Shown one piece after another: positions 5,301 to 19,835 of a stretch of 64,000 nt of DNA. Under the pieces are notes generated by a model. It did not search any database. It was not told the origin of the DNA and was given only the letters and a program-made list of their open reading frames with translations. This stretch comes from Asticcacaulis machinosus. Its GTDB lineage: Bacteria > Pseudomonadota > Alphaproteobacteria > Caulobacterales > Caulobacteraceae. The position numbers and the translations under genes are program-made. Location: positions 434,001 through 498,000 of the forward strand of contig NZ_JAQQKV010000002.1 of NCBI RefSeq assembly GCF_028550435.1, in the 5' to 3' direction. Numbering within the stretch: position 1 is the stretch's first letter; each line of letters starts with the position of its first letter.

Positions 5301-5472
5301 CGGCACACCCTTTACCCTGACCGGCGGTGACCTTAAGGGCGGGGCGCCGGTGGTGGGAATGCGCCTCTCTGCGGGCAACGAATATGGTTATCTGTCGCTG
5401 GAGGCCGAGGGCGAGAAATACAGCGAATATGATAACTATTCGATCAGCCTGCGCACCGGTTTCAAATTCTGA
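2323..5472 (+). CDS. Autotransporter (type Va) with beta-helix-like passenger
   Basis: The protein has 1049 residues. Residues 1-27 are a signal peptide ending 'RVWA'. Residues of about 28-680 are Gly/Ser/Thr/Asp-rich with recurring 'xGSIsxxG'-type units of about 20 residues, as in a right-handed beta-helix passenger. Two strongly acidic insertions ('DEDDDDLVDG' and 'DDDNTDENGNGIEDTEEG') might bind calcium. The last 270 or so residues are an autotransporter beta-barrel: alternating aromatic strands and a C-terminal Phe after 'SLRTGF'. The passenger would be displayed on the cell surface. No catalytic motif is visible; adhesion or matrix binding is the usual guess. No clear ribosome site precedes the ATG. 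It stands alone between two intergenic regions. Confidence 0.82.
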   Translation: MPISRFRCATALGVVLAVTGVAPRVWADTSVATATTTPVATSTGGNIDVTSDGSITLTSGTAVTVDSDNTVTLNGTIAMSGAESNSTGVLIDGARSTTLDLSGTITVTDDYTAADEDDDDLVDGVFAEGTGRYGVRATGLLTGAIDIDSTITVEGNQSYGISLEGGRTGDFIFDGTISVLGDDVVGLNLAGTQTGQTYISGSISATGKDSSAVDISGLIDGALIFDGSISGTGYRYTSIGEDYLDLLQADDLYQNKALVSISNDVTQGILINAGVTSTDDDNTDENGNGIEDTEEGTASIAQYGGNAGLLVGSDSKAITISPIVVADTAVEPDEVNHGLDIRGSIASYGIYEGIDATAVQIAGLGYDTTITNGISISGSVGSTAYEGIARGLSLLEGAQVGRLDVSGSLTASSTTTDYDTAYALDIASGANLSALNIKTGGSVVAYGYGTTANATAIRDQSNTLTSITVNGGITASITPGDEDEDDVTDTAVNRAVAIDLSGNTVATNLNITDEYPDDDDYAAPYIAGDVKFGSGNDSLTMSGGYLYGNVDFSAGANSLTLDDEAILLGKLTGAGTVAVDIENARLGLSAGSQLNLSSLHLGSEAELYMVLQTAAPTTPVFINSGPTTFDDGAAIYLSLDEIIQSPTRFTLMTGTNIDYGSLDLEDMDENVPWLYKVSLATGEANENLYADFRVRTQSESGLNMNEYSALNAILTAASTVDATTTTILSETTRSGFTKVYTAFLPDYSGENLLTLSKGHQALNQSLAKQSFLPDAGQTQYWLQEYGYSLKRERGDTTGFQSTGFSFAGGAERGLGQNQAIGVYVSYTTTSPEDTYATANETTSAEDITIGGYWRVNAGNLKGWASAGLGRTMFTSERELLSDYSALISTGKWNGYSLSGNFGASYETALGPVSLKPTATVDYYALKEDSRTETGGGSSFDLSVDDRTSHLASAAAILYLGRAKKDALIRPEAWVGYRSNFSVNIDDTVARFGDGTPFTLTGGDLKGGAPVVGMRLSAGNEYGYLSLEAEGEKYSEYDNYSISLRTGFKF

Positions 5473-5811
5473 TTTGTATCCCAAAAGCAACACGCCCCAT
5501 GCTGCTATGCAACATTAGTCAGTAAACGCCCTTCCCAACGCTGTTATTTGACGTTAAGGTGCCTCATCGGGAGACCGGTAGGCCGGATTGCGACGGGCAA
5601 GTGTAATTTATGCTTAATTATCTATTATTTGCAGAATCCCGTCAGACCGCCTGAAAGTTGGCGTATATTATTTTGGGGTATTATCCAGACACTCGCAGAG
5701 TTTAGGCTTAGTCCTTGCTCAGCGCTTCGCACCGGCGGGTCTTATGTCCGGTTTCTGGTGGTGCCGGAACATGGATTTTACAGGTAATTTTTAAAGCGGG
5801 CTGACTGACAA
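5473..5811. other. 339-bp intergenic region before the MBOAT operon
   Basis: No convincing gene is seen. A 79-codon open frame (5548-5787) has irregular composition, no ribosome site and no recognisable protein character. The AT-rich part around 5600-5700 probably holds the promoter of the MBOAT operon. No strong terminator hairpin was found after the autotransporter gene. Confidence 0.5.
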
Positions 5812-7281
5812 GTGCTGTTCAATTCAATTGAATTTATTGTCTTTTTTATAGCGACTGTCATCGGTTACATGCTGATGCCACAGCGTGCACGCCTACCTCT
5901 TTTGCTGATCGCCAGTCTGGTATTCTATGGCTGGTCAGGGCCTTTGTTCCTGGTCCATTTGCTGGTGGCCGCCGCCCTTGTCTATTATTTCGCAATCGCG
6001 ATAGAAAAAGCCGAGGATAAGCCCCGCAAGCAGAAGATCATGACCATCGCCATTGTGCTGTTGGTACTCAATCTGGTCGGTTTTAAATATACGTCCTTTT
6101 TCAATGAATCTTTGCGCGGCCTGTTCGGCTGGTTTGGGGCATCCTATGATGTGCCGGTTCTGAACATCATTCTACCGCTGGGGATTTCGTTCTACACTTT
6201 CCTGATGATCGGTTACCTGATCGACACTTTCCGCGGTGACAAAGCCGAACGCGATCCGTGGGTGTTTGGCACATTCGTGTTCTTCTTCCCCAAGATGATC
6301 GCCGGCCCGATTGAGCGCGGCAAGAACCTGCTGCCGCAACTGCGCGCGCCCCTCAAAGGTTTTGACTACGCCCTGATGACCGCCGGTCTGCAACTGATGC
6401 TGTGGGGCGCATTCAAAAAGGTGGTGGTCGCGGACCGCATCGCCCCGTTCGTTAACCGCGTCTATGACAACCCTCAGGCCTATGACGGCGTGTCGATGGT
6501 GTTTGCCACCTGGCTCTATGCCTTTCAGCTCTATTTCGACTTCAGCGGCTATACCGATATCGCGCTAGGGGCGGCTATGGTGTTTGGCATCAAGCTGTTG
6601 CCGAACTTCAACCGCCCCTATTTTGCCGTCTCCATTCAGGACTTCTGGAAGCGCTGGCATATATCTTTGAGTTCATGGCTCAATGACTACGTCTATACGC
6701 CGTTTTCGCGCAGCCGCTGGACCGGGCTTAAGATGTATAATCTGATGCTGGCCGGGATGATGCTGACCTTTGTCGTGTCCGGTTTCTGGCACGGCGCCAA
6801 CTGGACCTTCATCGTCTGGGGCGCGCTGCACGGCACCTATGTGGTCGTGTCCCTGCTGGCGCAAAAGCCGTGGAACAAGTTTGCCAAAAATTCCGGCCTG
6901 ACCAAGCGCCCGAAAACCTATCGTGCCCTCAAAATCGGCGTGACCTTCCTGCTGGTGTGCTTTGCCTATATCTTCTTCCGCGCCAATTCTCTGGCCGATG
7001 CCGGCTACATCATCAGCCATATGCACACCGGCTGGGGCGGGTTTACCTCCGGTATCCGCGCGGTGATCGACGGCAAGCTGGCCGAAATGGCGCTGGCGAT
7101 CCTTGGCATCATCGTGGTTATGGCGCCGGAATGGTACAAAGACCACGCCAAGGTCGGCGATATCTACCGTGCTCTGCCGTCCTGGCAACGCTGGGGCCTG
7201 ATCTATGCCGCCACGGTCGCCGTCGTTATTCTGGGGGCCTATTACAACCTCGACCAAAAATTCATCTATTTCAGGTTCTGA
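5812..7281 (+). CDS. MBOAT family membrane-bound O-acyltransferase (DltB/AlgI-like)
   Basis: The protein has 489 residues and starts at GTG. The N-terminus 'MLFNSIEFIVFF' is typical of the DltB/AlgI branch of MBOAT enzymes. About ten hydrophobic segments are visible, along with the conserved 'FWKRWHISLSSWLNDYVY' segment and the catalytic-His region 'SGFWHGANWTFIVWGALHG'. Family members move an acyl group across or at the cytoplasmic membrane onto a polysaccharide, teichoic acid or protein. The next four genes encode an SGNH protein, a carrier protein, an adenylating ligase and a reductase. The acyl group is therefore probably activated on the carrier, as in the Dlt pathway. The stop codon overlaps the next start (TGATG). 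Confidence 0.92.
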   Translation: MLFNSIEFIVFFIATVIGYMLMPQRARLPLLLIASLVFYGWSGPLFLVHLLVAAALVYYFAIAIEKAEDKPRKQKIMTIAIVLLVLNLVGFKYTSFFNESLRGLFGWFGASYDVPVLNIILPLGISFYTFLMIGYLIDTFRGDKAERDPWVFGTFVFFFPKMIAGPIERGKNLLPQLRAPLKGFDYALMTAGLQLMLWGAFKKVVVADRIAPFVNRVYDNPQAYDGVSMVFATWLYAFQLYFDFSGYTDIALGAAMVFGIKLLPNFNRPYFAVSIQDFWKRWHISLSSWLNDYVYTPFSRSRWTGLKMYNLMLAGMMLTFVVSGFWHGANWTFIVWGALHGTYVVVSLLAQKPWNKFAKNSGLTKRPKTYRALKIGVTFLLVCFAYIFFRANSLADAGYIISHMHTGWGGFTSGIRAVIDGKLAEMALAILGIIVVMAPEWYKDHAKVGDIYRALPSWQRWGLIYAATVAVVILGAYYNLDQKFIYFRF

Positions 7282-8342
7282 TGATGGACAGCGAAACGCA
7301 AAAGCCAAAAACCGGTGACGCGGCGCCTCCAGAAGCGGTCGTAAAGCCCAAGGGCGTGTTAAGCCTGCTGGGCCGCCTTAGCCTGTTGGCCATTGTCGCC
7401 GTCGCGACCCTGATGGCCGTGGTGCTGGGCATCCCCGATGATAACGACTATGCCCGCGCCACTTTGCTTAAGCATGACCGTTTGTCGACCCTGCCGGGCA
7501 AGAAGATCGTTCTGGTGGGCGGATCGAACCTGTCCTACGGCATGGATTCGACTCTGATTGAGCGTGAAACCGGCTGCCCGGCGGTCAATATGGGCCTCAA
7601 CGGCTATTTCGGCGTGCGCTATCTGATGCGCGAAGTCGCCGACGACGTGAAGCCCGGCGACATCATCGTCATCGCCTTTGAGTGGGACAGCTTCGGCAAG
7701 CCGATCGATGGGTCGGGCAAGGATCTTTACGCCATCGTCAAGACCAATCCGGCGGCCATCGCTTACCTTACGCCACAACAGATCGGTGAGGCTGTCTCGG
7801 CTATCCCGTTTGTCGCCCAGTCCAAGCTGCTGCGCATCGGCAATCAGGCCGCGCGCGGTGAATTATTCAAGCCCAAGGGCGATAATTTGCTGGATCAACT
7901 GATCGAGGTGGAATCCTTTAAGAGCTTCGCGCCGACCGGCGACCTGATCGGCCACAAAGGCGTTGCCTGGACCGGCGATATCGAAGAGGGCACCAAGCTT
8001 TATCAGACCGGCGTAGACCCCACGGTCGTGCCCGCCATCAAGGCCTATGCCAAACAGATGGAAGCCAAAGGCGTGCATGTGGTCATGTCCTATACCCCGA
8101 CCATGCGCCACTATTACGAAGCCAATAAAACTCAGATTGACAGCGTTCATACGGCGCTGACCACAGGCCCTGACGCCGTCAAGGCCCCGCGTCCGCCATC
8201 GGATTATGTGTTCGATGAATCGCTGTTTTTCGACACGGTCTATCACCTCAAGGCCGAAACCCGTCACCTCCGCGTCCAGCAAGTCGTAGGCGATCTGCGC
8301 ACCACGCTCAAAGACGCGGCCACCTGTTCCAAACCTAACTAA
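7281..8342 (+). CDS. Membrane-anchored SGNH-like protein (DltD/AlgJ-like role)
   Basis: The protein has 353 residues. A transmembrane segment at about residues 25-50 is followed by a periplasmic domain. SGNH-like elements are visible: Ser82 in 'GGSNLSYG', an Asn block 'NMGLNGYFG' near residue 110, and a C-terminal 'FDTVYHL' giving Asp318 and His322. In Dlt- and alginate-type systems such a protein works with the MBOAT enzyme in acyl transfer or acyl-acceptor handling. The ATG overlaps the MBOAT stop by one base, so the two are translationally coupled. An open frame extends upstream inside the MBOAT gene but overlaps its conserved coding sequence. The SGNH assignment is from motifs only. Confidence 0.75.
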   Translation: MMDSETQKPKTGDAAPPEAVVKPKGVLSLLGRLSLLAIVAVATLMAVVLGIPDDNDYARATLLKHDRLSTLPGKKIVLVGGSNLSYGMDSTLIERETGCPAVNMGLNGYFGVRYLMREVADDVKPGDIIVIAFEWDSFGKPIDGSGKDLYAIVKTNPAAIAYLTPQQIGEAVSAIPFVAQSKLLRIGNQAARGELFKPKGDNLLDQLIEVESFKSFAPTGDLIGHKGVAWTGDIEEGTKLYQTGVDPTVVPAIKAYAKQMEAKGVHVVMSYTPTMRHYYEANKTQIDSVHTALTTGPDAVKAPRPPSDYVFDESLFFDTVYHLKAETRHLRVQQVVGDLRTTLKDAATCSKPN

Positions 8343-8353
8343 AGGAAACTCGA

Positions 8354-8599
8354 ATGACCGAAGACCAAATCTACGCCGCCATCGTTGAGATCATCAGCCA
8401 GACGCTGGATGACAAGGGCCTCGACGTGCCGGAAATCACGCCTGAGACCGAAGTTCTGGGCGATGAACTGGGTATCGATTCGCTCGATCTGGCCACGCTC
8501 GTGTCCGAACTGGAAAAGAAGATCGGCTTCGATCCGTTCGCCAAGGGCTTCATTGAATTCAAAACGGTCGGCGAACTGACCAAGCTTTACGTGCGATAA
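8354..8599 (+). CDS. Acyl carrier protein
   Basis: The protein has 81 residues, is acidic, and matches the length of DltC/AcpP-type carriers. The phosphopantetheine attachment site is 'GIDSLDLATLV', with Ser43 as the modified residue. A ribosome site AAAGGAAA lies just upstream of the ATG. It lies between the SGNH protein and the adenylating ligase and ends 4 bases before the latter. It should therefore be the dedicated carrier for the acyl group loaded by that ligase and consumed by the MBOAT enzyme. It is unlikely to be the housekeeping fatty-acid carrier, given this context. Confidence 0.9.
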   Translation: MTEDQIYAAIVEIISQTLDDKGLDVPEITPETEVLGDELGIDSLDLATLVSELEKKIGFDPFAKGFIEFKTVGELTKLYVR

Positions 8600-8603
8600 T
8601 CGC

Positions 8604-9896
8604 ATGCGGATAGGGCTGGATCTCAAACCCGGAGATGATACCGCACTGGTGGCGCGGGGCGAAGCCCTGTTCACCCGCGGCGATATCCGGGCCCGTGCCG
8701 ATGACCTGTCGGCGGCGATCACAGAGCGCGGGGTTTCCCGCGTTCTGGTGCGCAGTGACGATTCTGCCCTGATCCTTGAAGCCATTGATGCCTGCGACCG
8801 GGCGGGGGCTGACCTGTTCATCGCCCACACCACGATTGCGCAAGACCGTATCGACGCCATCTGCGCCGAACATGGCATCGGGCTGGTGCTGAACGGTGAG
8901 CGGGATTGGCGCAGCGCCACGCCATCCCCGTCCGAGAGCCGCATCTATATGATGACCTCCGGTACCACGGGTATGCCCAAGGTCGCCGCCCATTCCCTGC
9001 AAAGCCTGCTGGCCAAGGCCAAGGCCGGTGTCAAACGCCGCCCCGATCAGGGCGGGCGCTGGGTGCTGACCTATCAGCCGACCGGCTTTGCCGGTATTCA
9101 GGTCAGCTTAACCGCGGCCCTGTGGGGCGGTCTGCTGATCACACCGGCTGAACGCACTATGAGCGGCTTTTATCATGTCAGCCGTCACTGGAACGGTACG
9201 CACATTTCCGGCACGCCGACCTTTTGGCGATCGTTCCTGATGGTGGCCGATCCGGCGCAACTCAGCCTGCAGCAAATCACGCTGGGCGGCGAAGCGGCCG
9301 ATCAGCCGACCCTTGACCGCATCCGCAAAGCCTTTCCTGACACCCGCGTCACCCACACCTATGCTTCGACCGAAGCGGGCGTAGTCTATGCGGTGCATGA
9401 TGGCCTTGAGGGCTTTCCGGCGGCGTGGCTGGAAGCCGCCCCTTCCGGTGTGGCCCTGCGCATCAAGGACGGATTTCTTCAGATCAAGACCCCCAACATG
9501 ATGAGCGGCTACCTGTCGGCAGCGTCTCAGCCGCTGCTGGATGACGGCTGGCTGGCGACCGCCGATCTGGTTGAACTGGCCGGAGACCGCGTTAAGGTGC
9601 TGGGCCGTGACGACAACACCATCAATGTTGGCGGCTCAAAGGTTTACCCCTTGCCGGTCGAAGCTCTGATCCTGAAGCAGGACGGGGTTATTGAGGCCCG
9701 TGTCTACGGACAGCCCAATCCGGTCACCGGCGCTCTGGTCGCCGCCGATGTCGTGCTGGAAGACGGCGCCGACGAAAAGGCTGCGCGCAAAGCGATACTG
9801 ATCGCCTGCCGTGAAGCCCTGCCCGCCTATTCGGTGCCCAGATCACTTAATTTTGTCGATAAGATCGCGGTCTCGGCTGCGAATAAAAAGGGATAG
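8604..9896 (+). CDS. AMP-forming acyl ligase (ANL superfamily, DltA-like role)
   Basis: The protein has 430 residues, short for the ANL superfamily (usually 500 or more). The phosphate-binding motif 'MMTSGTTGMPKVAAHS' is at about residues 112-127. 'YASTEAG' (A5) lies near 255, an adenylate-binding 'GWLATADLVEL' (A7) near 315, and a hinge/A8-like 'GRDDNTINVGGSKVYP' near 335. The C-terminus 'VSAANKKG' matches the A10 lysine region but lacks the usual tail. The reduced N-terminal part suggests a small or simple acyl substrate. It probably adenylates a carboxylic acid and loads the adjacent carrier protein. Substrate unknown. Confidence 0.86.
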   Translation: MRIGLDLKPGDDTALVARGEALFTRGDIRARADDLSAAITERGVSRVLVRSDDSALILEAIDACDRAGADLFIAHTTIAQDRIDAICAEHGIGLVLNGERDWRSATPSPSESRIYMMTSGTTGMPKVAAHSLQSLLAKAKAGVKRRPDQGGRWVLTYQPTGFAGIQVSLTAALWGGLLITPAERTMSGFYHVSRHWNGTHISGTPTFWRSFLMVADPAQLSLQQITLGGEAADQPTLDRIRKAFPDTRVTHTYASTEAGVVYAVHDGLEGFPAAWLEAAPSGVALRIKDGFLQIKTPNMMSGYLSAASQPLLDDGWLATADLVELAGDRVKVLGRDDNTINVGGSKVYPLPVEALILKQDGVIEARVYGQPNPVTGALVAADVVLEDGADEKAARKAILIACREALPAYSVPRSLNFVDKIAVSAANKKG

Positions 9897-9898
9897 CT

Positions 9899-10648
9899 AT
9901 GCGTCACGTTATTGTCACCGGCGGCAGCCGCGGTCTGGGCGCGGTGATGATCGAAGGCCTTCTGGCCGACGGTTATCGCGTCTCGACCTGTAGCCGGAAG
10001 AAAACCGACAATATTGCCCGCCTTGAGGCCCATCCCGAATATGGTCAATACTTCTTCTGGCAAGCGTGCGAAGTCGGTGAAGCCGATCAGGTCGATGCCT
10101 TCGTCGAAGCCGCCGTCGAATGGGCGGGCGAAGACGGCCTGTGGGGTCTGGTTAACAATGCCGGCGTCGCTCAGGCCGGGATTCTGGCCTCCTTCCCCAA
10201 TGTCGAAAGCGAGCGCATCCTGAAAATCAATCTGCTCGGCACCATTCAGATGGCGCGCGCCGCCTCCAAGGTCATGCTGGCGCAAAAGCCCTCCGAAAAT
10301 CAGGGTGGCCGGATTATCAATATTTCGTCGATCATCGGTACACGTGGCTATAACGGCTTGTCGGCCTATTCAGCCTCAAAGGCGGGCGTGGATGGCTTCA
10401 GCCGCGCGCTGGCCCGCGAACTGGGCCGCCGCCAAATCACGGTCAACAGCGTCGCTCCCGGCTATGTCGCGACCGAAATGTCATCGACGCTTACCCCTTC
10501 GCAGCTTAAGCAAATTGTCGGGCGCACGCCGCTGGGGCGACTGGCCGATGAAGACGATATCCTGAACGCCGTGCGCTTTTTCCTGAGCGATGGCGCGCGT
10601 ATGGTCACGGGTCAGACCCTGATCATTGATGGCGGCATTAGTACGTAA
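9899..10648 (+). CDS. SDR family oxidoreductase, 3-oxoacyl-ACP reductase (FabG)-like
   Basis: The protein has 249 residues, the classical SDR length. Visible are the NADP-binding 'VTGGSRGLG' at residues 6-14, 'NNAG' near 85, the catalytic Ser in 'INISSIIG' and 'YSASKAG' with the Tyr/Lys pair near 158-162. The start follows the ligase stop after two bases, in the same operon. FabG-type enzymes reduce a 3-oxoacyl thioester on a carrier protein. Here it may reduce the acyl group carried by the adjacent carrier, giving a 3-hydroxyacyl unit, or act on a sugar. The first reading is inference from context. Confidence 0.88.
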   Translation: MRHVIVTGGSRGLGAVMIEGLLADGYRVSTCSRKKTDNIARLEAHPEYGQYFFWQACEVGEADQVDAFVEAAVEWAGEDGLWGLVNNAGVAQAGILASFPNVESERILKINLLGTIQMARAASKVMLAQKPSENQGGRIINISSIIGTRGYNGLSAYSASKAGVDGFSRALARELGRRQITVNSVAPGYVATEMSSTLTPSQLKQIVGRTPLGRLADEDDILNAVRFFLSDGARMVTGQTLIIDGGIST

Positions 10649-10781
10649 AGCCTTAATTTTCAGGGCTTTGTGAGTTTGAGTGACGTAAGGTAAGATCAGG
10701 TTTACGCCTGCCCTTTAAAGATCGGTTCTGGCACGGGTGTTGCACCGCGTCATGCCCGACACCCAACACGGAGCAAGTGAC

Positions 10782-11786
10782 ATGACGCGCAAACCTTTGC
10801 TGTCTCTGGTAACCCCCGCCTATAACGAAGCGGAAGGGATAGAGGCGTTTCATGCCCGTGCTCAGGCCGTCATGGAAAGTCTCGACGGGCTGGATTACGA
10901 AATGATCTATGTCGATGACGGCAGCCGCGACGACAGTTTTAAGATCATGAGCGAATTTGCCATCACCAATCCGCGCGTCAAGGTCGTCAAGTTTTCACGT
11001 AATTTCGGCCACCAGATCGCGATTACCGCCGGACTTGATCATGCCAGGGGTGACGCCATTGTCTTTATAGATGCCGACCTGCAGGATCCGCCTGAACTGA
11101 TCCATGACATGGTTGCAAAATGGCGTGACGGCTTTGATGTGGTCTATGCCAAACGCGCGCGCCGCGAGGGCGAGACCAAATTCAAGCTGTGGACCGCGGC
11201 GATGTTTTACCGCCTGCTGCGTTCGCTTTCCAATATCGATATCCCGCAGGATGTCGGTGATTTCCGCCTGATCTCCGCCCGTGTCGCCAATGAACTGCGG
11301 GGTATGCGGGAAAAAGACCGCTTCATTCGCGGGCTGGTGAGCTGGGTCGGTTTCCCACAGACCTTCGTGCTCTATGACCGCGATGAACGTTTTGCCGGGG
11401 AAACCAAATATCCGCTCAAGAAAATGCTGAAATTCGCCTTCGACGGCATTACGTCATTTTCCAATACCCCGCTGAAAGTGGCGACATGGATGGGTTACGG
11501 CGCGTCAGCTCTGGCGTTTCTTTATCTGGCGTCGGTGTTCGTGCAGTGGGCCTTTGGCATCACCGTCGAAGGCTGGGCCACCATGATGGTCGCCATGCTG
11601 TTCTTAGGCGGGGTGCAGTTAATCTGTATCGGGATCTTAGGGGAATATCTCGGCCGCATATTTAATGAGATCAAACCCCGTCCCGTCTATATCGTGCAGG
11701 AAGTGGCCAGTTCCGCTGAAACCGCCACCACCGACCTTGACACCGCCGCCCCTGTGGCAGCCTTTGCCGAACACGGCCGGAGATAG
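10782..11786 (+). CDS. GtrB-like family 2 glycosyltransferase (polyprenyl-phosphate sugar synthase)
   Basis: The protein has 334 residues. The cytoplasmic GT2 domain has 'VTPAYNEAEGI', 'YVDDGSRDDS' and 'FIDADLQDPPELI'. The 'GETKYPLKKMLKFAFDGI' segment typical of the DPM/GtrB branch comes next, then two C-terminal membrane segments. GtrB enzymes move a sugar from a nucleotide sugar to undecaprenyl phosphate on the cytoplasmic face. ATG at 10782 is chosen because GGAG precedes it; an ATG 15 codons earlier lacks a site. A GtrA-like protein at 18176 and polytopic proteins at 11790 and 16472 would complete a Gtr-type set. Confidence 0.9.
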   Translation: MTRKPLLSLVTPAYNEAEGIEAFHARAQAVMESLDGLDYEMIYVDDGSRDDSFKIMSEFAITNPRVKVVKFSRNFGHQIAITAGLDHARGDAIVFIDADLQDPPELIHDMVAKWRDGFDVVYAKRARREGETKFKLWTAAMFYRLLRSLSNIDIPQDVGDFRLISARVANELRGMREKDRFIRGLVSWVGFPQTFVLYDRDERFAGETKYPLKKMLKFAFDGITSFSNTPLKVATWMGYGASALAFLYLASVFVQWAFGITVEGWATMMVAMLFLGGVQLICIGILGEYLGRIFNEIKPRPVYIVQEVASSAETATTDLDTAAPVAAFAEHGRR

Positions 11787-11789
11787 ATT

Positions 11790-13499
11790 GTGACCTCTGA
11801 CCTGACCCCTGTGGCGCCAAAATCCGCATCCACCGCCCTGATCATCCGCGTACTGGCGTTCAATCTGCCGCTGGTTTTTGGCCTGCTCAGCCTGAACGTC
11901 CTGCCAGAAGTTTTGCAGCCATTTTTTGCGGGCCTGATGATGATGATCCTGCCGGGTCTGGCCTGGTCAGATATGCGCGGCAGGGATTTCGTCGTCCTGC
12001 TGTTCCGGGTGGTCATTATCTCCATACTGGCGTCGGCGGCGGTGTGGTTGCTGCTCATGCCTTTGCCCGGCCCGACCAGCCGCATCGCGTTCGTGGTCGG
12101 TCTTGCGCTCATCGTCAATGCGGGCCTGTGGTTCGGCACCAAGCGCCAGTGGTTTGACCTGACCGAAATCGTCAAACCCCTGCCCGCCGTTCTGCTGGCG
12201 GTGGCAGCTCTGTTCTACCTGCAATCGTTCATGGGCGCGACCAAGTTTGTGCCGCAGCTTGAGGATCAGGACATGGAGCTTCAGGCCACCGCCTATGGCA
12301 TGATCAATGACGGCACGCCGAACATGGTCACCAATCGCGGCACCCGTTTTTATCTGGCCCATCCGCTGATGCTGCACTTCTGGATCGGCGAAGGGGCGCT
12401 GTTCGAAGATGAGATCGACGGCTTCAAATATTATTATGACGCCTCTGTCGCCGCCAAAGACCCGAACTTTGACCGTCAGGCCGCGTGGGATCAGTCGTTT
12501 GTGCAGTTTAATGCAACGCCCCTGCTGCTGGCCACGCGCACACCCAATATTTTCCTCAGCTTCCTGATTATCTTTCCGCTTGGGTTTTTGGTCCACCGCC
12601 TGTCCGGATCGCTGATTGCCGCAGCGGGGGCCGGTGTGTTTTATGCGACCTTCCCGGAAATCTACGTCCGCTCAAGTTACGGCGGCTACATGGCCATCAG
12701 TAATTTCTGGCTGGTGTGCAGCGCCTATTTTTACCTGCGCGCTACCGGCCTGTTTACCCATGCGCCTGCGGTTACCGATCCGGTCGACAGCGATCGCCGC
12801 AGAGGGTTCTGGGCGTCGTTCATGTCGTCTATCTCCGACCAGAAGGGCGCGCTTTTGCCGATGGCCGTGCCGGTCCATGTCGGTTTGCGTTTCCTGATGG
12901 ACGGCGGGCTAAAGGGCCTGTTTGACGGCGGCATCAAGGGCGCGTGGGATAAGCTGATGGCGCGGCCCGATGTGCGCGCCGGTCTTGCGGTCTGTCTCGG
13001 CTTTCTGGGCGGGTGGATGGCGTTTATCGTGTACGGCTTTATCGTCGATCCCCATGAATTTTACGAAGAACATATCTACGATCACCTGATCGGGCGGCTC
13101 AAAGCGGCTGAGGATAAGGTGGTCAGCGACTGGGTCTATCCGTCGGCTGGTGAACTGTGGATGCAGTTCATCACCCACTATGGCTGGCTGACCATGATCG
13201 CCTTTGGTCTGGCGCTTATCTACGGCGGGCGGCGCATCCGCGAAGGGGTCGGCTTTCTGGTGCTGTGGTTTGCCATTGGCGCGATTGGTTTTAGTCTGGT
13301 GGACTGGCGCCAGACCAAGCATTTTGCCCACTTTGTCCCGGCGCTGGTGATGCTGACCGCCGTCTACTGGGCCTCGCTCAAAGGACGCTGGCAGCAGGCC
13401 TTTACCGCCTTTATGGTCGTGACCATTGTGTGGAACTTCTACCGGGTCATACTGACCATGCAAAACTTCACTTATATTCAACCGCTGCCGATCTGGTAA
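11790..13499 (+). CDS. Polytopic membrane protein, GT-C-type glycosyltransferase candidate
   Basis: The protein has 569 residues with roughly ten hydrophobic segments; the GTG start lies 4 bases after gtrB-like. A large loop at about residues 150-220 contains an acidic 'PQLEDQDMELQ' motif, reminiscent of the metal/lipid-phosphate-binding acidic pair of GT-C enzymes, and later aromatic-rich loops ('YVRSSYGGYMAISNF'). GT-C enzymes use polyprenyl-phosphate sugars in the periplasm. Position next to GtrB-like supports the role of periplasmic transferase (GtrC role). The sequence itself does not resemble a family I can name with certainty. Confidence 0.65.
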   Translation: MTSDLTPVAPKSASTALIIRVLAFNLPLVFGLLSLNVLPEVLQPFFAGLMMMILPGLAWSDMRGRDFVVLLFRVVIISILASAAVWLLLMPLPGPTSRIAFVVGLALIVNAGLWFGTKRQWFDLTEIVKPLPAVLLAVAALFYLQSFMGATKFVPQLEDQDMELQATAYGMINDGTPNMVTNRGTRFYLAHPLMLHFWIGEGALFEDEIDGFKYYYDASVAAKDPNFDRQAAWDQSFVQFNATPLLLATRTPNIFLSFLIIFPLGFLVHRLSGSLIAAAGAGVFYATFPEIYVRSSYGGYMAISNFWLVCSAYFYLRATGLFTHAPAVTDPVDSDRRRGFWASFMSSISDQKGALLPMAVPVHVGLRFLMDGGLKGLFDGGIKGAWDKLMARPDVRAGLAVCLGFLGGWMAFIVYGFIVDPHEFYEEHIYDHLIGRLKAAEDKVVSDWVYPSAGELWMQFITHYGWLTMIAFGLALIYGGRRIREGVGFLVLWFAIGAIGFSLVDWRQTKHFAHFVPALVMLTAVYWASLKGRWQQAFTAFMVVTIVWNFYRVILTMQNFTYIQPLPIW

Positions 13500-13527
13500 T
13501 CTGATTTTTTGAAAGAGGCTGTTCACG

Positions 13528-14865
13528 GTGCGTAAAATTGTGGTCGCGGGTGCAGCGGGTCAGGTCGGCAGCCGGTTGTGCGCCTTACTGGCAAACGCCG
13601 GTCATGTGGTGCTTGGCATCGATCGCAATGTCCGCCCGCAGGACGCCCCCAAAGGTGTTGTCTGGATCAGGTCCGATCTGCTGGAACCGCAAAACTACGC
13701 CCATGCGCTCAGCGGCTATGAGATTGTCATCGATTGTGCAGGGCTTGCCGGTAAGGCCCGCCCCGCCGACTATATGCGTGAAAATGTCGAAGCCACGCGT
13801 ACCCTCCTTAATGCGGCCGTTAACGCCGGGGTGACGCGCTTTATCTATATCTCCAGCATCGCCGCCAAGTTCACCGACCGTAAGCACTATGTCTATGCCG
13901 ACTCGCGCAATGCCGCCGAAGCGGTAGTATCAGCCGCCCCGTTGAGCTGGACCATTATTCGTCCGACCATGATCTTCGGGCCGGATTCGGCGGTTCAGGC
14001 CAATCTGTCGAAGCTGGCGGGCCTGCCGGTCACGCCTGTGTTCGGCGATGGCCTCAGCAAGGTACAGCCGGTGGTCTCAGATGATGTGGCCGCTCTGTTG
14101 TCGCAACTGGCTTTCGGAGATGATGCCGCGGGTGCCACGATCGAAGTCGGGGGCGCGGAAACCTTCGACATGCACGGTCTTTTGAGCAAATTGCGCACGC
14201 TAAACGGTGCCGATCAGCCCGCGAAATTTGTGCATCTGCCGTTGTCGTTCATGCGCGCGTCGCTGGCTATGGTTGAAGGCGCAGTGTTCAAATTCCTGCC
14301 GTTCACCAGCGGTCAATTAGCCGCCTTTGCCAATGATGCGATAGCCGACCCGCATCCGCTGATGGCCAAATACCTGCCCGCACCTCAAGTCCTGGATGAG
14401 CGGATCGTACCGCCCAAGGGTGCCCATACAACCTCGGATTCGGCGCTGGGCAAGGAGTTTTACCTGTTCACCCGCCACCTGACCCGGACGGGTGGCACGG
14501 CCTATCAGGAAAGCAAATATATCGATTTCCACCGCCGCCATCCGCTTGAGCCCATTGATGCTTTTGAGGGCCTGTTGCTCAAGGTCGCCCGCTCCGGCGC
14601 GTTTGGGGTGTGGCTGACCGACAGTTTTACCGGCCTTTTGGGGCGGCAATCGGTCGTGCGCGCCAAGCTGGTTCTGACTATGGCTCTGCTGGAATCGGCC
14701 CCGCCCAGCTTTCATGAACTGGATGCGCCCGACCCCAAGGGCATGGCCTGGCCGTTCATGGTTCTGCGCGGGATCGAAGCCGCCTTTGGCGTATTACTCG
14801 GCGCGCTGATCTTCATTCCCGCCAAGCTGATTTTGGGCCGTAAGGCTAAGGGGGCGCGGTCATGA
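13528..14865 (+). CDS. NAD(P)-dependent epimerase/dehydratase family protein with C-terminal extension
   Basis: The protein has 445 residues and starts at GTG, with GAAAGAGG upstream. Residues 1-290 are an extended SDR: 'VVAGAAGQVGSRL' nucleotide-binding loop, 'IDCAGLAGKA', 'VTRFIYISSIAAKF' and an atypical active-site region 'HYVYADSRNAAE' in place of YxxxK. About 150 further residues end in a hydrophobic stretch ('AAFGVLLGALIFIPAKLIL'), suggesting membrane association. It overlaps the GMC oxidoreductase gene by 4 bases (ATGA). It may act on a nucleotide sugar or on a lipid-linked sugar. The missing canonical Lys makes its activity uncertain. Confidence 0.75.
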   Translation: MRKIVVAGAAGQVGSRLCALLANAGHVVLGIDRNVRPQDAPKGVVWIRSDLLEPQNYAHALSGYEIVIDCAGLAGKARPADYMRENVEATRTLLNAAVNAGVTRFIYISSIAAKFTDRKHYVYADSRNAAEAVVSAAPLSWTIIRPTMIFGPDSAVQANLSKLAGLPVTPVFGDGLSKVQPVVSDDVAALLSQLAFGDDAAGATIEVGGAETFDMHGLLSKLRTLNGADQPAKFVHLPLSFMRASLAMVEGAVFKFLPFTSGQLAAFANDAIADPHPLMAKYLPAPQVLDERIVPPKGAHTTSDSALGKEFYLFTRHLTRTGGTAYQESKYIDFHRRHPLEPIDAFEGLLLKVARSGAFGVWLTDSFTGLLGRQSVVRAKLVLTMALLESAPPSFHELDAPDPKGMAWPFMVLRGIEAAFGVLLGALIFIPAKLILGRKAKGARS

Positions 14866-16475
14866 GTGATTCCATAGTCATCATCGGCGGTGGCGCCTCG
14901 GCCGTCCATGCCGCCCAGACCGCCCTTGAGAAGGGTCGCACCGTGACCCTGATCGATATCGGGGTCACCGGCCCTGAACCGGCGCTCCCAGGTGCGTCGC
15001 TCAACGGCCTGAAAACCGACCTCGACGATCCGGTATCCTATTTTCTGGGTGAGGACTATTCGTCGCTTATTCTGCCCTCAAACGGCAGTGAATATTACGG
15101 CTTTCCGCCTTCGAAAGAATATGTCCTGCGCGATGTGATCGGCGCGGATCAAAAGGTCGCGGGTATCGCCCCGCTATCCTCCTATGCCGGCGGCGGTCTG
15201 GCGCAGGCGTGGACCGCCGGTTCTTATCCGTTTACGGACGGTGAACTTGAGGCGTTCCCCTTTGGCTGGGCTGATATGGAACCGGCCTACAGTGAGGTCG
15301 CACGCCGCATCGGCGTCAGCGGGGTCACCGATGATGACCTGTCGGCCTTTATGCCGACCCACGAATCCTTGCAAGCGCCGATCCCAATGGATGAGCACTC
15401 GCAACATCTGCTGTCGACCTATTCGGCCAAACGCGCCAAACTAACCGCCAAGCACAACATGTATCTGGGCCGCGCCCGGATCGCCTCCCTGTCGCAGGAT
15501 CACGGTGATCGTCCCGCCTGTTCGCGCTGTGGCCGATGCCTGTGGGGCTGCCCGACCCAGTCGATCTATACGCCGTCGGTTACGCTGGAGCATCTGCGCC
15601 GCCAGCCGGGGTTTAGCTACCTGCCCGGCGTGAGGGTCGACCGGTTTGAATTTGATGACGGTGGCCGCGTAACACAGATCGTGGCTCATCGTCTTGAGGA
15701 TGGTGTGGACATTACCTTGCCGGTTGAGACTCTGGTGCTGGCGGCGGGGACCATCGGCAGTGCGCGCATCCTGTTGCAATCCCTGCATCACGCGGGACAG
15801 GACGTGGCGCTGTCCGGCCTGATGGATAATCGTCAGGTGCTGATGCCGTTCATCAATCTGGCGCGGGTCGGGTCATCCTTTGATGACAACAGCTATCAGT
15901 ATAATCAGCTCGCCATCGGCGCGCCGATGGATCATCCCCATGACTATGTGCATGGCCTGATGACGACGCTGACCACCGCGCTTATTCATCCGGTGGCGCA
16001 ATCTTTGCCCGTCGGGATGCGCACCGCCACCGGAATTTTCCGTAATATTCACGGCGCGCTGGGGCTGGTGAACATTAACTTCGCTGACACCCGCCGCGCC
16101 GACAACACCGTATCACTGGAACCGGGAACGGACGGCAAGCACCGTCTGGTGATCAACTATACGCCGTCGGCGGATGAAGCGGATCGCATCAAGCGCGTAG
16201 TGCCAAAGTTCCGTAATTTCCTGATGGATATGGGCTGTTTCGCGCCGCCGCCGATGACCCGCCTGCGCCCAATGGGGGCCAGCGTCCACTATGCCGGTGT
16301 CATGCCTATGCTGAATGATGGCGGTGATTTCACTACCGATCGCGCCGGGCGGCTACGGCCGTTTGAGAACCTGATCGTGGCGGACGGTTCGACCTTTACG
16401 TCCCTGCCCGCCAAGAATTTGACCTTCACCCTGATGGCCAATGCCACGCGTATTATGCACGAGGCTTTAGCTTAG
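14862..16475 (+). CDS. GMC family FAD-dependent oxidoreductase
   Basis: The protein has 537 residues. The FAD-binding 'IVIIGGGASAVHAA' is at residues 5-18. Central GMC elements follow, with 'VLAAGTIGSARILLQS', and a C-terminal substrate/FAD block ends 'ADGSTFTSLPAKNLTFTLMA'. A cluster of cysteines, 'CSRCGRCLWGCP', near residue 220 resembles those of bacterial GMC enzymes acting on sugars or polyols; a metal or disulfide role is possible. The start overlaps the preceding epimerase-like gene (ATGA), so the two products probably act on the same sugar or polyol. No signal peptide, so cytoplasmic or membrane-associated. Confidence 0.86.
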   Translation: MSDSIVIIGGGASAVHAAQTALEKGRTVTLIDIGVTGPEPALPGASLNGLKTDLDDPVSYFLGEDYSSLILPSNGSEYYGFPPSKEYVLRDVIGADQKVAGIAPLSSYAGGGLAQAWTAGSYPFTDGELEAFPFGWADMEPAYSEVARRIGVSGVTDDDLSAFMPTHESLQAPIPMDEHSQHLLSTYSAKRAKLTAKHNMYLGRARIASLSQDHGDRPACSRCGRCLWGCPTQSIYTPSVTLEHLRRQPGFSYLPGVRVDRFEFDDGGRVTQIVAHRLEDGVDITLPVETLVLAAGTIGSARILLQSLHHAGQDVALSGLMDNRQVLMPFINLARVGSSFDDNSYQYNQLAIGAPMDHPHDYVHGLMTTLTTALIHPVAQSLPVGMRTATGIFRNIHGALGLVNINFADTRRADNTVSLEPGTDGKHRLVINYTPSADEADRIKRVVPKFRNFLMDMGCFAPPPMTRLRPMGASVHYAGVMPMLNDGGDFTTDRAGRLRPFENLIVADGSTFTSLPAKNLTFTLMANATRIMHEALA

Positions 16476-17893
16476 TAAGGCGGATCGATTTTCGGGGGAT
16501 TGCCCGCCACGGTCTGTTTGGCGATATCGACGGCTGCGGTGAACTGCGTGACATTATTCATGCCGCCGCACACCATTACCACCGCCGCCAGAGCCAGCGC
16601 CTTAAGCCGGTGCGGGCTGAACCATGAAAAGGCCGACAGCATAATCAGGGGTGGCAGGACATAGGGCGCATACAGAAAGGTCAGTTCGCCGTAGAGCACA
16701 TGCAGTACGCCTTCAAAAACGATCATCAGGGCAACCGCAATCGCCACCGGCCGCAGACGCTGATGGACAATCGCCCCCCAGATTCCGAGCGCCAGAAGGA
16801 CGACCCACGCCAAGGTCGCGGCGATCCCCGGCACGGTGCGGGTAAAGCCGGAATGCTGATTATTGATGATGTAATATTCTTTGTTGACCCATTGCGAGAC
16901 CTCCATGACCTGCAGATAGGGGGCCGGTGAAATCTGGGTGGTGATATAGAGCGACTGAAGATTCTCCAGCGGCGTCCAGCCCGGCCGGCCGGCCGCACCA
17001 GCGACCGGTTGCACAAAATAGGCTTCGGTTTTAACAATGCGCGGATCAAAGAACAGACCAGCGTCGTTGAAGGTGAAAAACTGCACCACCGCCAGCACGA
17101 ATATGACCCCAAGCGCTATGGCGGATATGCGGATCACCGGCGATTTCAACCAATAGATGACAAAAGCCTTTAAGGAAAACGTGCCTTGCGGAGCCGCTTC
17201 GCCGTCAGGGCGCATTGGCCAACGCGCCAGGGTCGCGATCAACCCGAACATCCAGCTTGTGATCGTGATACTGAGCGTGCCCGCGCTCATCAGTATCCAC
17301 CAGATATGCGATTTCGTGCGACCATAGGCCAGCAGGATCAGCGCCAGAATGATGGTGATCTGCGACGGCAGGCTTTGTTCAATGACGCTGTTCCAGTGCA
17401 GAAATGTGCCGCTGGAGGCCATGACGCCGACAAACAACGCCGATACCGCCTTGGGCATGGCCAGCCCCCGCAAGGCGGCATACATCAACCCAAGGCTCAG
17501 GGCTGAGAACAGCAAGATAATGTTTCTGGCCGCCTCATAGGGCGCCATGCCCAGCTTGGTGAGGATGATGCCAAAGGGCGAAATCAGGATCGAGGCGGCC
17601 GGATGAACCGTGGTGCGGTAATGATCGCTGTCGGCATCGGTCATGTTCTGAGTGACGCGGTAGATATCGCCCTGAAACCACAGATCAAGGCCGCGCGTGT
17701 CTTCGAGGGTCATCCCAAGCTGATTGAAACCCCACAGCGATGTCATCAGTCCGCAGGCTCCTAATGCGGCGGCGATGACACCATCCAGCCGGTCAAGTTT
17801 AACGCGCTCACCCGTATCGTGCCGGGCAAATGCATCCTGTAGCTGAAGCGCCTGTTCCGGCAGCCGTAAAATATCTTTGATCGCGAAGGTCAT
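16472..17893 (-). CDS. Polytopic membrane protein, possible GT-C-type transferase
   Basis: The protein has 473 residues if it starts at ATG 17893; an in-frame start 24 codons upstream is possible because no ribosome site is decisive. There are about ten hydrophobic segments. The first large loop has 'GLDLWFQGDIYRVTQNMTD' followed by 'DSDHYRTTVHP', acidic and aromatic residues as in GT-C glycosyltransferases. The gene faces the GMC oxidoreductase gene tail to tail, with a 4-base overlap of the stop regions. It is divergent from the GtrA-like gene. Function is inferred only from topology and neighbourhood. Confidence 0.55.
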   Translation of the reverse strand: MTFAIKDILRLPEQALQLQDAFARHDTGERVKLDRLDGVIAAALGACGLMTSLWGFNQLGMTLEDTRGLDLWFQGDIYRVTQNMTDADSDHYRTTVHPAASILISPFGIILTKLGMAPYEAARNIILLFSALSLGLMYAALRGLAMPKAVSALFVGVMASSGTFLHWNSVIEQSLPSQITIILALILLAYGRTKSHIWWILMSAGTLSITITSWMFGLIATLARWPMRPDGEAAPQGTFSLKAFVIYWLKSPVIRISAIALGVIFVLAVVQFFTFNDAGLFFDPRIVKTEAYFVQPVAGAAGRPGWTPLENLQSLYITTQISPAPYLQVMEVSQWVNKEYYIINNQHSGFTRTVPGIAATLAWVVLLALGIWGAIVHQRLRPVAIAVALMIVFEGVLHVLYGELTFLYAPYVLPPLIMLSAFSWFSPHRLKALALAAVVMVCGGMNNVTQFTAAVDIAKQTVAGNPPKIDPPY

Positions 17894-18175
17894 GGGAAGG
17901 CTTTCATTTTTTATGTTTTTGAAAATGAAACGCAAAGACTTACGGGCACGCATACTGCGGCGCACCTAAAAATTAATAAAGCATAAACCCTGTTATAAGA
18001 ACAAGATTCTCCAATATCGTACGCTTTGCGATAACGGCGATGTGTGACGGTCATGCAACTGAATTTGCATAGCTTAGCGCCTAAGGTGTAAGCCGTTGAC
18101 TTTCCCGGTATTGACAGGCTCAGTGCCGCATACGCGCTTTTTCCGATTGCCAACCCGAATGACTAAGGTGACCTC

Positions 18176-18652
18176 TTGATCCCCGGCCTTAACTATACGC
18201 CCGATCCGGTGAAGCAGCCTTTGCTGCACCGCATCATGACGATACTGGCCATGCCTATGGTCGGGCAGTTTGCGCGCTTTCTGATGGTGGGGGCCACGGC
18301 CACTCTGACCCACTCCCTGATCCTGTTTCTGCTGGTGGAATATGCACACCTGAAACCACAGATCGGCAATGCCATCGGCTTTTGTGGCGGGGTGACGGTC
18401 AGCTATATCCTGAACAGCCGGTTCACTTTTCGCGCCAGATCGGGGAACGCTTCCAATTTCAGGTTTGTGCGCTTTTTAGGGGTGACAGGCATTGGGTTCT
18501 GCCTAAATGGTCTGCTGTTTGGCCTGTTCCACAATATGGGTCTGCACTATCTGGTGGCGCAGTTGATGGCGACCGCCATTGTTGTGTTCTGGAATTTTTT
18601 CGGGTCGCGCCTGCTGGTCTTTTTCCATCACCCGCACAAGACCGACGCCTGA
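18176..18652 (+). CDS. GtrA-like membrane protein (polyprenyl-phosphate sugar flippase)
   Basis: The protein has 158 residues with four membrane segments. The opening 'FARFLMVGATATLTHSLILF' and the 'GVTVSYILNSRFTF' block are hallmarks of the GtrA family. The proposed role is flipping undecaprenyl-phosphate-linked sugar to the periplasmic side. A TTG start at 18176 is supported by TAAGGTG just upstream; the first in-frame ATG lies 19 codons later. It is the presumed partner of the GtrB-like enzyme at 10782, although 6 kb apart. Confidence 0.85.
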   Translation: MIPGLNYTPDPVKQPLLHRIMTILAMPMVGQFARFLMVGATATLTHSLILFLLVEYAHLKPQIGNAIGFCGGVTVSYILNSRFTFRARSGNASNFRFVRFLGVTGIGFCLNGLLFGLFHNMGLHYLVAQLMATAIVVFWNFFGSRLLVFFHHPHKTDA

Positions 18653-18655
18653 TAC

Positions 18656-19513
18656 CTAAGGCATCGGCACGCTTAAGTGCACCACATCATCTCCGGCAAT
18701 GACATCACCGGCCTCCAGCGTCGGCTGGTTGAGTACCCGTGCATACAACGGCGCGAAATCTTCCTGCGTAAAGTTCAACAGCCTCTCAAGGTCGGGCAGA
18801 ACGAAATAGGTTTCCTGAAAGTCGTCGATGCGGTAGCGCGTGCGCATCACGCGCTCCAGATCAAAGGCTATGCGATTGGGTACGGGGCTTTCCAGCGCAT
18901 AGGGCGTCTCGCTATATGACGACAAAATCCCGGCCCCGAAAATGCGCACTTCACCGGCCTCAAACACCAGACCAAATTCGACCGTGTACCAGTAAAGCCG
19001 CGCCAATGGCTCCAGCGCGCCCAAAGCTTTCGCCCGCAATCCACCCTGACCATAGGCCTGAATGAAATCGGCCATGACCGGGTGCATCAGCATCGGCACA
19101 TGACCAAAGACATCATGAAAAACGTCGGGTTCCTGAAGATAATCCAGTTGATCGGCCCTGCGGATAAACTGCCCGGCCGGAAAACGGCGGTTGGCCAGAT
19201 GCTCGAAAAACACCTCATCGGGCACCAGCCCCGGCACCGCCACGACCTGCCAGCCGGTAGCCGCATGGAGAATATCATTCAACCGCTCAAAACGTGGGAT
19301 TTCATCGGCAATATTCAGACGATCGAGCCCCGCCATAAAATCGGCGCAGGCCCGGCCTTTAACCTGCTTGATCTGGCGCTGATAAAGGGTTCTCCAGACA
19401 TCGTGTTCCGCCGGCCTATAGGTGTCCCAGTCCTGCGGAATCGTCCAGTCAGGCCGGTCAGGGACATAACCGCCGGCCTTGCCGTGTAACTCAACTGTGG
19501 TTTGGAGAAGCAT
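18656..19513 (-). CDS. phhA: Phenylalanine 4-monooxygenase
   Basis: The protein has 285 residues, the usual size of bacterial monomeric phenylalanine hydroxylase. It converts Phe to Tyr using tetrahydropterin and non-haem iron. The iron ligands are visible in '[14 protein letters not shown]' (two His) and the Glu of '[10 protein letters not shown]'. The start at 19513 (MLLQTT) is preferred because CAGGGTGA precedes it; an in-frame ATG at 19549 has no ribosome site. It overlaps the end of phhB by 23 bases, so the two form one operon. The operon is divergent from the homogentisate-pathway genes that degrade its product. Confidence 0.95.
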
Positions 19514-19835
19514 GGACCGTGTCACCCTGATGTTCCGCTGCCGCGCCATTGATGAAGCGCGCCAGCTTGAGATCTTTTTCGGTCAGGCCCTTGGCATCAT
19601 GGGTCGTCAGATGAATAGCCACGCGGTTATAGACATTGCTCCATTCCGGGTGGTGATCGACCGCTTCGGCATAGTGGGCAACCTCGGTCATAAAGGCCCA
19701 GGCAGCACGAAAATCCTTAAATTGCAGGTGACGCTCAAGCGCGGTATCGCCCGAAGTCAGATCCCAGTCGGGCAAGGATTTTTTCAACCCTTTAAGGTCA
19801 TCAGCCGTCAGACGGGTAACTAAAGCCGTAGTCAT
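19491..19835 (-). CDS. phhB: Pterin-4a-carbinolamine dehydratase
   Basis: The protein has 114 residues with the family motif '[20 protein letters not shown]' near residues 60-80. It dehydrates the 4a-hydroxypterin made by phenylalanine hydroxylase and so recycles the cofactor. It is the first gene of the phhB-phhA unit on the minus strand. Its promoter lies in the 227-base region shared with hppD. Confidence 0.95.

Follow-up and report, generated by a model that had tools for sequence, protein, structure and literature searches.

In the acylation pathways that pair an MBOAT with an SGNH protein, the motif FxYxxF serves as an acyl shuttle, which sits on DltX in the Dlt system and on the MBOAT itself in other pathways of this kind; according to the available part of PMC12148441, the latter work without a carrier protein, and the donor for PatA is acetyl-CoA. 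In DprE1/DprE2, a flavoenzyme oxidises and a short-chain dehydrogenase/reductase (SDR) re-reduces a lipid-linked sugar, which is then exported and transferred by a GT-C enzyme, and the authors of this account, in the portion available, stated that no further epimerases were known to them from O-antigen side-chain glycosylation (PMC11127046). Here we describe a locus of Asticcacaulis machinosus (genome of 3.77 Mb) at positions 5812 to 18652 of a 64,000-nucleotide stretch of contig NZ_JAQQKV010000002.1, called the window below. Our preferred explanation, held tentatively and with its chances a little below even, is that it comprises two adjacent cell-surface modification modules, one for acyl transfer and one for DprE1/DprE2-like sugar epimerisation. 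At the centre of the second module stands an SDR next to a GMC oxidoreductase, a pair that is recurrent and widespread.

An earlier note on this DNA had named the genes of the locus from MBOAT to GtrA, and all of them are indeed present, as seen from Pfam and NCBIfam matches, motifs and reading frames:

5812–7281, plus strand: MBOAT O-acyltransferase (PF03062) with the C-terminal tail FIYFRF, a FxYxxF acyl-shuttle motif
7281–8342, plus strand: SGNH-like protein with conserved S82, N103, D318 and H322 and one predicted N-terminal transmembrane (TM) segment, presumably periplasmic
8354–8599, plus strand: acyl carrier protein (ACP; PF00550, E 4.4e-9)
8604–9896, plus strand: short AMP-forming acyl ligase, MenE/acyl-CoA-ligase-like (PF00501, PF13193; MenE in the PDB)
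9899–10648, plus strand: FabG-like SDR ketoreductase (KR; PF00106/PF13561; TIGR01830 at 197.3 bits, below its cut-off of 297.75)
10782–11786, plus strand: GtrB-type glycosyltransferase (PF00535) with two predicted C-terminal TM segments
11790–13499, plus strand: polytopic GT-C-like protein, by topology and an EDQD motif in a loop
13528–14865, plus strand: extended SDR (PF01370; Y123-x3-K127) with a helical CT domain and a C-terminal membrane helix, from motifs, AF2 model, Foldseek and CT profile
14862–16475, plus strand: FAD-dependent GMC oxidoreductase (PF05199) with C220-x5-C226-x3-C230 and H476/N519, from conservation and alignment with the Burkholderia cepacia FAD-glucose dehydrogenase (BcGDH)
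16472–17965, minus strand: second polytopic protein, convergent with GMC, with homologues in loci L090 and L104
18176–18652, plus strand: GtrA flippase-like protein, detached (PF04138, 96.3 bits, cut-off 26.1)

The locus thus consists of two tight runs, from MBOAT to KR and from GtrB to GMC, to which are added a gene that converges on GMC and a GtrA gene that stands apart. The tight packing claimed for the first five genes is confirmed, as MBOAT and SGNH overlap by 1 base and the gaps that follow measure 11, 4 and 2 bases. Between KR and GtrB, the start of which was chosen by a conserved GGAG...ATG, lie 133 bases of intergenic DNA that align well between the window and three relatives; the second run then continues with gaps of 3 bases (GtrB to GT-C-like) and 28 bases (GT-C-like to SDR) and an overlap of 4 bases between SDR and GMC. 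The Gtr-like set that was said to follow the first five genes does so as far as this second run is concerned, but the second polytopic gene is ruled out as an operon member by its minus strand (on which it also lies in loci L078 and L079), and GtrA starts about 210 bases past it, oriented away from it. For the second polytopic protein no Pfam or NCBIfam match was found. A scan of positions 5400–18700 gave promoter-like sites at chance level (7 against a mean of 6.9 in shuffles) and 20 terminator-like sites (shuffle mean 13.0, standard deviation 3.8), and listed neither kind between KR and GtrB. Ligase, GMC and SGNH proteins at more than 90% identity are found in the same five Asticcacaulis species, in the same gene order; we refer to these as the window species.

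The MBOAT scores 93.9 bits against PF03062 (cut-off 27) and 196 bits against the DltB family TIGR04091, which is under the cut-off of 375 and does not make it a DltB equivalog. It has the combination typical of PatA, a C-terminal FxYxxF together with a catalytic histidine, and F484, Y486, H327 and H340 are invariant in an alignment of four sequences (A10). The SGNH-like protein matched neither DltD nor any other family in Pfam or NCBIfam at E 0.01; its GGS82, N103 and D318-x3-H322 are invariant in four sequences, two of which are remote MBOAT-linked homologues. Acyl-CoA and o-succinylbenzoate ligases are the best NCBIfam matches of the ligase, under their cut-offs, and no DltA model is among the matches listed (best 25 of 91 families). 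A built-in FxYxxF shuttle and a carrier with its ligase co-occur in this one operon. The first half probably activates an acyl group on the carrier protein for delivery to the other side of the membrane.

Relatives of the ACP-ligase-KR triad are found in another setting. In seven other Asticcacaulis genomes the triad lies within a cluster with KASIII enzymes, which in the one examined by family (L037 of genome G029) also holds a Rieske oxygenase, a hydrolase, PseG (TIGR03590, 178.4 bits, cut-off 153.55) and a PseH-like GNAT (62.6 bits, under the cut-off of 93.1). The window genome has the same cluster, but there no triad stands between the hydrolase and the second KASIII, and the cluster of the other four window species likewise has none; in the window genome the order is KASIII-Rieske-KR-hydrolase-KASIII-PseG-like-GNAT, without ACP-ligase-KR (G000:C2:884000-901000, L254). 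Two further genomes, G014 and G109, have ACP and KR inside the cluster and a ligase match on another contig. The distance between the two KASIII matches is 2,733–2,773 bases in the five window species, 4,759–5,867 in the seven congeners, and 3,683 and 3,697 in the G014/G109 pair. Counting a ligase match at E 1e-30 and a second KASIII at 57% identity or more, both are present in 14 of 25 congener genomes and both absent in the other 11, an association with p 2e-7 if the genomes were independent, which they are not. In trees (that of the ligase without G141), the ligase and the KR of the window each branch as sister to the copies in the congeners' cluster, with SH-aLRT values of 83 and 82 and long branches, and the ligases of G014 and G109 group with those of other genera, so that two of the 14 ligase-positive genomes are of another kind. 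The best reading is that the window triad is a divergent one that either moved out of the KASIII cluster or took the place of the triad there. It may supply the PseH-like enzyme or the MBOAT, or the two together; since the cluster in this genome is without its own triad, the window triad may serve the MBOAT and the KASIII cluster alike.

This distribution gives rise to the alternative that survives best: the triad would serve only the pseudaminate-type KASIII/PseG/PseH-like cluster, its place behind MBOAT-SGNH would be accidental, and MBOAT-SGNH would be an ordinary O-acetyltransferase pair using acetyl-CoA. We consider this quite possible, although we lean against it. The cluster lacks the triad in exactly the five window species, with the full triad there in seven congeners and ACP and KR in two more, and the joint presence or absence of ligase and second KASIII points the same way, as do a FxYxxF tail of the acyl-CoA type and four other alphaproteobacterial MBOAT loci, three of which have a match to SGNH at the threshold applied, that yielded no homologue of ACP, ligase or KR. 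Against an accidental placement speak the very tight spacing of the five genes and an order that is identical in all five species.

In the second half, the SDR has the Y123-x3-K127 motif and the Rossmann glycines that, with its PF01370 match, mark it as a suitable reductase partner. In its AF2 model (mean pLDDT 85.6, pTM 0.67) the SDR fold extends to roughly residue 290, residues 303–400 form a helical domain, and a long helix makes up the C-terminus; confidence is weak near 402–413. A single C-terminal TM segment is predicted. Complex I subunits (NDUFA9) and UDP-sugar epimerases rank first when the model is searched with Foldseek. The helical CT domain has no Pfam match in the window protein, four single weak matches among 22 members, and nothing convincing among PDB chains. 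It was also considered as a Gluconate_2-dh3-type subunit and rejected, the hhalign probability against eight PF13618 proteins being 0.2%, with 99.3% in a split-half control of CT itself.

A scan of a genome collection with the GMC protein returned 182 relatives, of which the best 80 were kept, and all locus counts refer to these. The CT profile matches in 68 of the 80 loci, directly upstream of GMC in 65; it lies in a long open reading frame (ORF) in 47 (45 of them adjoining and upstream of GMC) and in a short one in 21 (20 so placed). In loci with a separate CT gene, the SDR gene can lie on either side of GMC, with CT keeping its place before GMC. CT appears to be a partner of the oxidase, in many cases fused to the reductase. 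Both profiles, CT and SDR, derive from 27 fused SDRs in these loci plus the window, so that matches to those 27 arise by construction and the short separate CT genes are the independent ones; a few of the 47 long ORFs (L095, L108, L111) look over-extended. In L128 (6938–11593), from an Acidimicrobiales metagenome-assembled genome (MAG), a tandem pair of GMC copies lies behind a single SDR-CT.

The nearest relatives of the window GMC among the matches listed are those of Asticcacaulis sp. UBA2476 (96%) and A. endophyticus (95%). At E 0.01 the families matched are GMC_oxred and other FAD/NAD-binding families of Rossmann type, not those of DprE1. The protein has no predicted TM segment and no apparent N-terminal signal, and the FAD motif stands right at its start. 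When the 80 ORFs are aligned with the window protein, the two glycines of the FAD motif are kept in 79 of 81 rows and H476 and N527 in 80; C220, C226 and C230 are cysteine in 64, 63 and 63 rows. Their spacing equals that of residues 212, 218 and 222 in BcGDH, and by profile alignment H476/N519 correspond to its His476/Asn519. In BcGDH, Cys212, Cys218 and Cys222 are the ligands of a [3Fe-4S] cluster and His476/Asn519 the likely catalytic pair (PMC6719666, in the part available); the window protein has both the cysteine spacing and the His/Asn pair of a [3Fe-4S] FAD-glucose dehydrogenase. A clade of 17 rows from Sumerlaeota, Bacteroidota and others (L093, L095–L098, L100, L102–L104, L108, L111, L120, L139, L140, L144, L147, L151) is without the cysteines and has mostly Asp or Glu at the second and third positions; His476 and Asn527 are kept there. 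The GMC tree places the window row outside the large proteobacterial clade, in a clade of 15 that also includes Acidobacteriota, Planctomycetota, Myxococcota, Gemmatimonadota and two alphaproteobacterial MAG rows, and because its clade spans several phyla the second half may have moved between them.

In the window the pair has neighbours of Gtr type. The glycosyltransferase is a GT2 enzyme (PF00535) with two C-terminal TM segments that scores 304.3 bits against PgfS and 163.5 bits against PRK10714, each under its cut-off, and the last gene encodes a GtrA domain (PF04138). For the GT-C-like protein no Pfam or NCBIfam match was found; hydropathy gives eight TM segments, a homologue lies at the same place in locus L080 (35–36%), and an AF2 model from four sequences has a mean pLDDT of 35.6. 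The neighbourhood was compared in 52 loci, that is, the 80 less the two from Asticcacaulis and 26 shorter than 15 kb, with 40 ordinary GMC loci (PF05199), all from Alphaproteobacteria and hand-picked mainly for contig span, of which 37 reach at least 15 kb. Among these controls, 3 of 40 hold an ORF with the cysteine pattern and none of 40 a CT match. With all seeds, which were partly drawn from the family loci themselves, a GtrB-type enzyme lies near GMC in 38 of 52 loci against 1 of 37 controls, and GtrA in 23 of 52 against 0 of 37. The window GtrB as sole seed still finds 16 of 52 against 1 of 37 (p 7e-4); a separate flippase-like seed found 0 of 52 and 0 of 37. In the acidobacterial locus L080, the genes for GtrB (66%), GT-C-like protein (35%), SDR (42%), CT and GMC (57%) follow in the same order as in the window. 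Another order, PMT-like GT-C, GT2, methyltransferase, GtrA, SDR-CT, GMC, is found in 14 of the 80 loci, 11 of which belong to Pseudomonas. The methyltransferase of L112 (7514–8308) has relatives in 28 of the 80 loci, mostly 47–76% identical and close to SDR-GMC, a recurrence that hints at a methylated sugar.

The SDR-GMC pair is best read as a redox pair after the manner of DprE1/DprE2 but with a different flavin fold, with a polyprenyl-linked sugar as its presumed substrate, and it may reshape membrane-anchored sugars. It is also conceivable, though unlikely, that no epimerisation takes place at all and that the product of the GMC enzyme is a keto or oxidised sugar that is stable, or that the SDR acts on a nucleotide sugar, with GtrB and the GT-C-like protein attaching the modified sugar. 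Such a route would suit the further matches of the GMC profile, to pyranose oxidase and 6'''-hydroxyparomomycin C oxidase, and the SDR model, which comes nearest to NDUFA9 and to UDP-sugar epimerases. Against it speak an SDR match in 32 of the 52 long loci and in none of the 37 controls, in many cases fused to the domain beside the oxidase, and a membrane helix at the end of the window SDR that suits a lipid-linked substrate.

The earlier note had joined the two halves in one locus for an acylated and oxidised sugar on LPS or another surface polymer, and proposed to look for their co-occurrence. In a sample of 199 genomes of the family, the ligase is matched in 26 (E 1e-30), GMC in 7 (E 1e-30) and SGNH in 5 (E 1e-5); in a class-wide sample of 337 genomes, GMC is matched in 6 (E 1e-20) and SGNH in 5 (E 1e-5), the window genome being counted in each. 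Plasmid searches with the SGNH and GT-C-like proteins gave no match. MBOAT-SGNH-ACP-ligase-KR occurs near GMC in only the two Asticcacaulis loci among the 80. Of the 199 species sampled in the family, the five that have the SGNH gene have the two halves together; elsewhere the halves occur apart. A partial parallel exists in the betaproteobacterial loci L112–L114, in which a 366-amino-acid gene, ACP, KR, MBL, KASIII, ligase and PIG-L lie directly behind SDR-GMC. The ligase and KR of L112 are 35% and 33% identical to those of the window, and its small protein, which has no Pfam match, is taken as ACP by its place. As for the 366-amino-acid gene, the idea of a PseG homologue was dropped (hhalign 0.1%, with shallow alignments). 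The three loci form one clade in the GMC tree, MBOAT or SGNH was not detected in them, and their ligase and KR are distant from those of the window in the trees. The two halves have separate histories, and a joint function is possible. What stands of the earlier interpretation is that the gene content fits acyl activation with an MBOAT-SGNH pair and a GtrB/GtrA-type set with an oxidoreductase; one widely conserved system is not supported, as only two of 80 GMC loci carry the first five genes and the triad's relatives in seven congeners lie in the KASIII cluster. That both halves form one pathway by which a single surface polymer receives an acylated, epimerised or oxidised sugar is improbable, for although the order is kept in all five species, L112–L114 offer a partial parallel and no terminator-like site is listed between the halves, these lie apart elsewhere and 133 bases apart here, and the parallel amounts to one clade with no detected MBOAT or SGNH and with distant ligase and KR.

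From gene content, motifs, pairing, domain architecture and phyletic pattern we infer a course of reactions and substrates for two modules, and with it whatever cooperation they may have. In the first, the ligase would load an acyl group onto the dedicated ACP and the FabG-like reductase would set its oxidation state; the MBOAT would take the acyl group from the carrier and pass it via its own C-terminal tyrosine, in FxYxxF, to the SGNH protein, which would esterify a surface glycan. In the second, GtrB would make a polyprenyl-phosphate sugar at the cytoplasmic face, its presence suggesting a polyprenyl-phosphate hexose as the substrate. The GMC flavoenzyme would oxidise one hydroxyl of this sugar, with electrons leaving via the [3Fe-4S] cluster, and the membrane-anchored SDR would reduce the ketone from the other face, which amounts to a net epimerisation. 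A location at the cytoplasmic face fits a GMC protein that has no predicted TM segment and begins at its FAD motif, and an SDR whose single TM segment lies at the C-terminus. GtrA would then flip the sugar carrier, and the GT-C-like protein would transfer the sugar outside.

Several observations weigh against this explanation. For the first module, use of the ACP by the MBOAT is deduced solely from the operon, PatA using acetyl-CoA in the available part of PMC12148441, and the triad might serve the PseH-like enzyme alone. The long branches of the triad (0.84 for the ligase) leave a simple recent relocation unsupported by the trees, the tree positions of the G014 and G109 ligases weaken the count of 14, and the parallel in Betaproteobacteria is likewise weakened by ligases that fall in other tree groups. 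Synteny in five species is weak evidence because the proteins concerned are more than 90% identical, and there is no significant enrichment near GMC of the ligase (4 of 52 against 0 of 37, p 0.14), KR (7 of 52 against 5 of 37) or MBOAT (2 of 52 against 1 of 37). For the second module, the window GtrA as seed finds no match in the 52 loci, nor in the 37 controls, and 13 of the 52, two of them in the window's clade, are without a GtrB, GtrA or flippase seed match. The cysteine pattern is absent from 18 of the 80 GMC ORFs, namely the 17-row clade and the truncated L094, so the family can do without the [3Fe-4S] cluster. Just 19 of 81 rows have Asn at position 519, many others having His one position later. 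Oxidation without re-reduction, giving a keto sugar or an acid, would fit GMC alone.

The surroundings of the locus are mixed. Upstream of the MBOAT gene, at 2323–5472, lies a 1049-amino-acid autotransporter (PF03797), for which no match was found in the stretches of four relatives that were compared. Adjoining GtrA, at 18656–23739, is a tyrosine/homogentisate degradation block (phenylalanine hydroxylase, pterin dehydratase, HPPD, HgmA, FAH). A VirB4-like ATPase (CagE_TrbE_VirB, TraG P-loop) at 30329–32764 is the first of overlapping ORFs that reach 36919, a run that may serve type IV secretion or conjugation. Mandelate-racemase-like, UxaC, GH67, DUF6629 and HlyIII genes form a run at 47188–53419, which in three relatives stands directly upstream of the MBOAT operon and in a fourth about 3.7 kb upstream; its place relative to that operon in the window genome differs from that in the four relatives.

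All components of the locus belong to known families except CT, which matched none. As far as the open-access literature shows, the conserved SDR-CT/GMC set is new, and a search of that literature, which is weak evidence of absence because most subscription journals lie outside it, found no described link of such a GMC enzyme with GtrA, polyprenyl sugars or DprE1. A FxYxxF MBOAT with its own carrier is new when set against PMC12148441 alone, in the part available. Epimerases on polyprenyl-linked sugars have so far been DprE1/DprE2 and, recently, ORF13; if our reading is true, the widespread GMC-SDR-CT set would be a third kind of such epimerase and a genome marker for its sugars, and the MBOAT operon would show by experiment whether an MBOAT of PatA type is able to draw its acyl group from a carrier protein. 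In its boldest form, which we regard as doubtful, SDR-CT/GMC would be an evolutionarily separate second solution to the DprE1/DprE2 problem, a flavoenzyme usually with an iron-sulphur cluster and a membrane-anchored reductase, found by record titles in at least ten phyla, that epimerise polyprenyl-phosphate hexoses before export, and the MBOAT operon a PatA/Dlt hybrid that draws on an acyl-ACP pool of nonulosonate type.

Compared with known systems, the first half resembles Dlt, the system for D-alanylation of teichoic acids, in having ligase, carrier, MBOAT and SGNH-type protein in one operon, but its ligase best matches the acyl-CoA/MenE type (best 25 of 91 NCBIfam families), it has an additional ketoreductase, and its MBOAT stays under the DltB cut-off and has FxYxxF built in. 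The MBOAT with C-terminal FxYxxF and a separate SGNH protein are shared with PatA/PatB-type pairs, which, unlike the window operon, are said in the available part of PMC12148441 to lack a dedicated ACP and ligase. The second half shares GtrA, a GtrB-type enzyme and a polytopic GT-C-like protein with Gtr O-antigen glucosylation, to which it adds SDR-CT and GMC. Its flavoenzyme is like the FAD-glucose dehydrogenase of B. cepacia (6a2u) in GMC family, three-cysteine [3Fe-4S] spacing and His/Asn pair, while CT is unrelated by profile to Gluconate_2-dh3. As in the three-component pentofuranose systems with the ORF13 epimerase, a dedicated epimerase would act on a lipid-linked sugar ahead of its export and its transfer by a GT-C enzyme; those systems differ in having a single SDR, a MATE flippase and ribose from phosphoribosyl pyrophosphate (PRPP), with GMC unmentioned in the available part of PMC11127046. 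The proposed logic is that of the DprE1/DprE2 pair of mycobacterial arabinan synthesis, likewise an FAD oxidase with an SDR reductase, and many of the proteobacterial loci adjoin a GtrA gene. DprE1 is of the VAO/FAD_binding_4 type, and in the Rv3789 neighbourhood a GtrA gene lies beside DprE1/DprE2. The window flavoenzyme, unlike DprE1, is a GMC protein, and because a GtrB-type enzyme is present its sugar is probably a hexose, rather than the ribose from PRPP of DprE1/DprE2.

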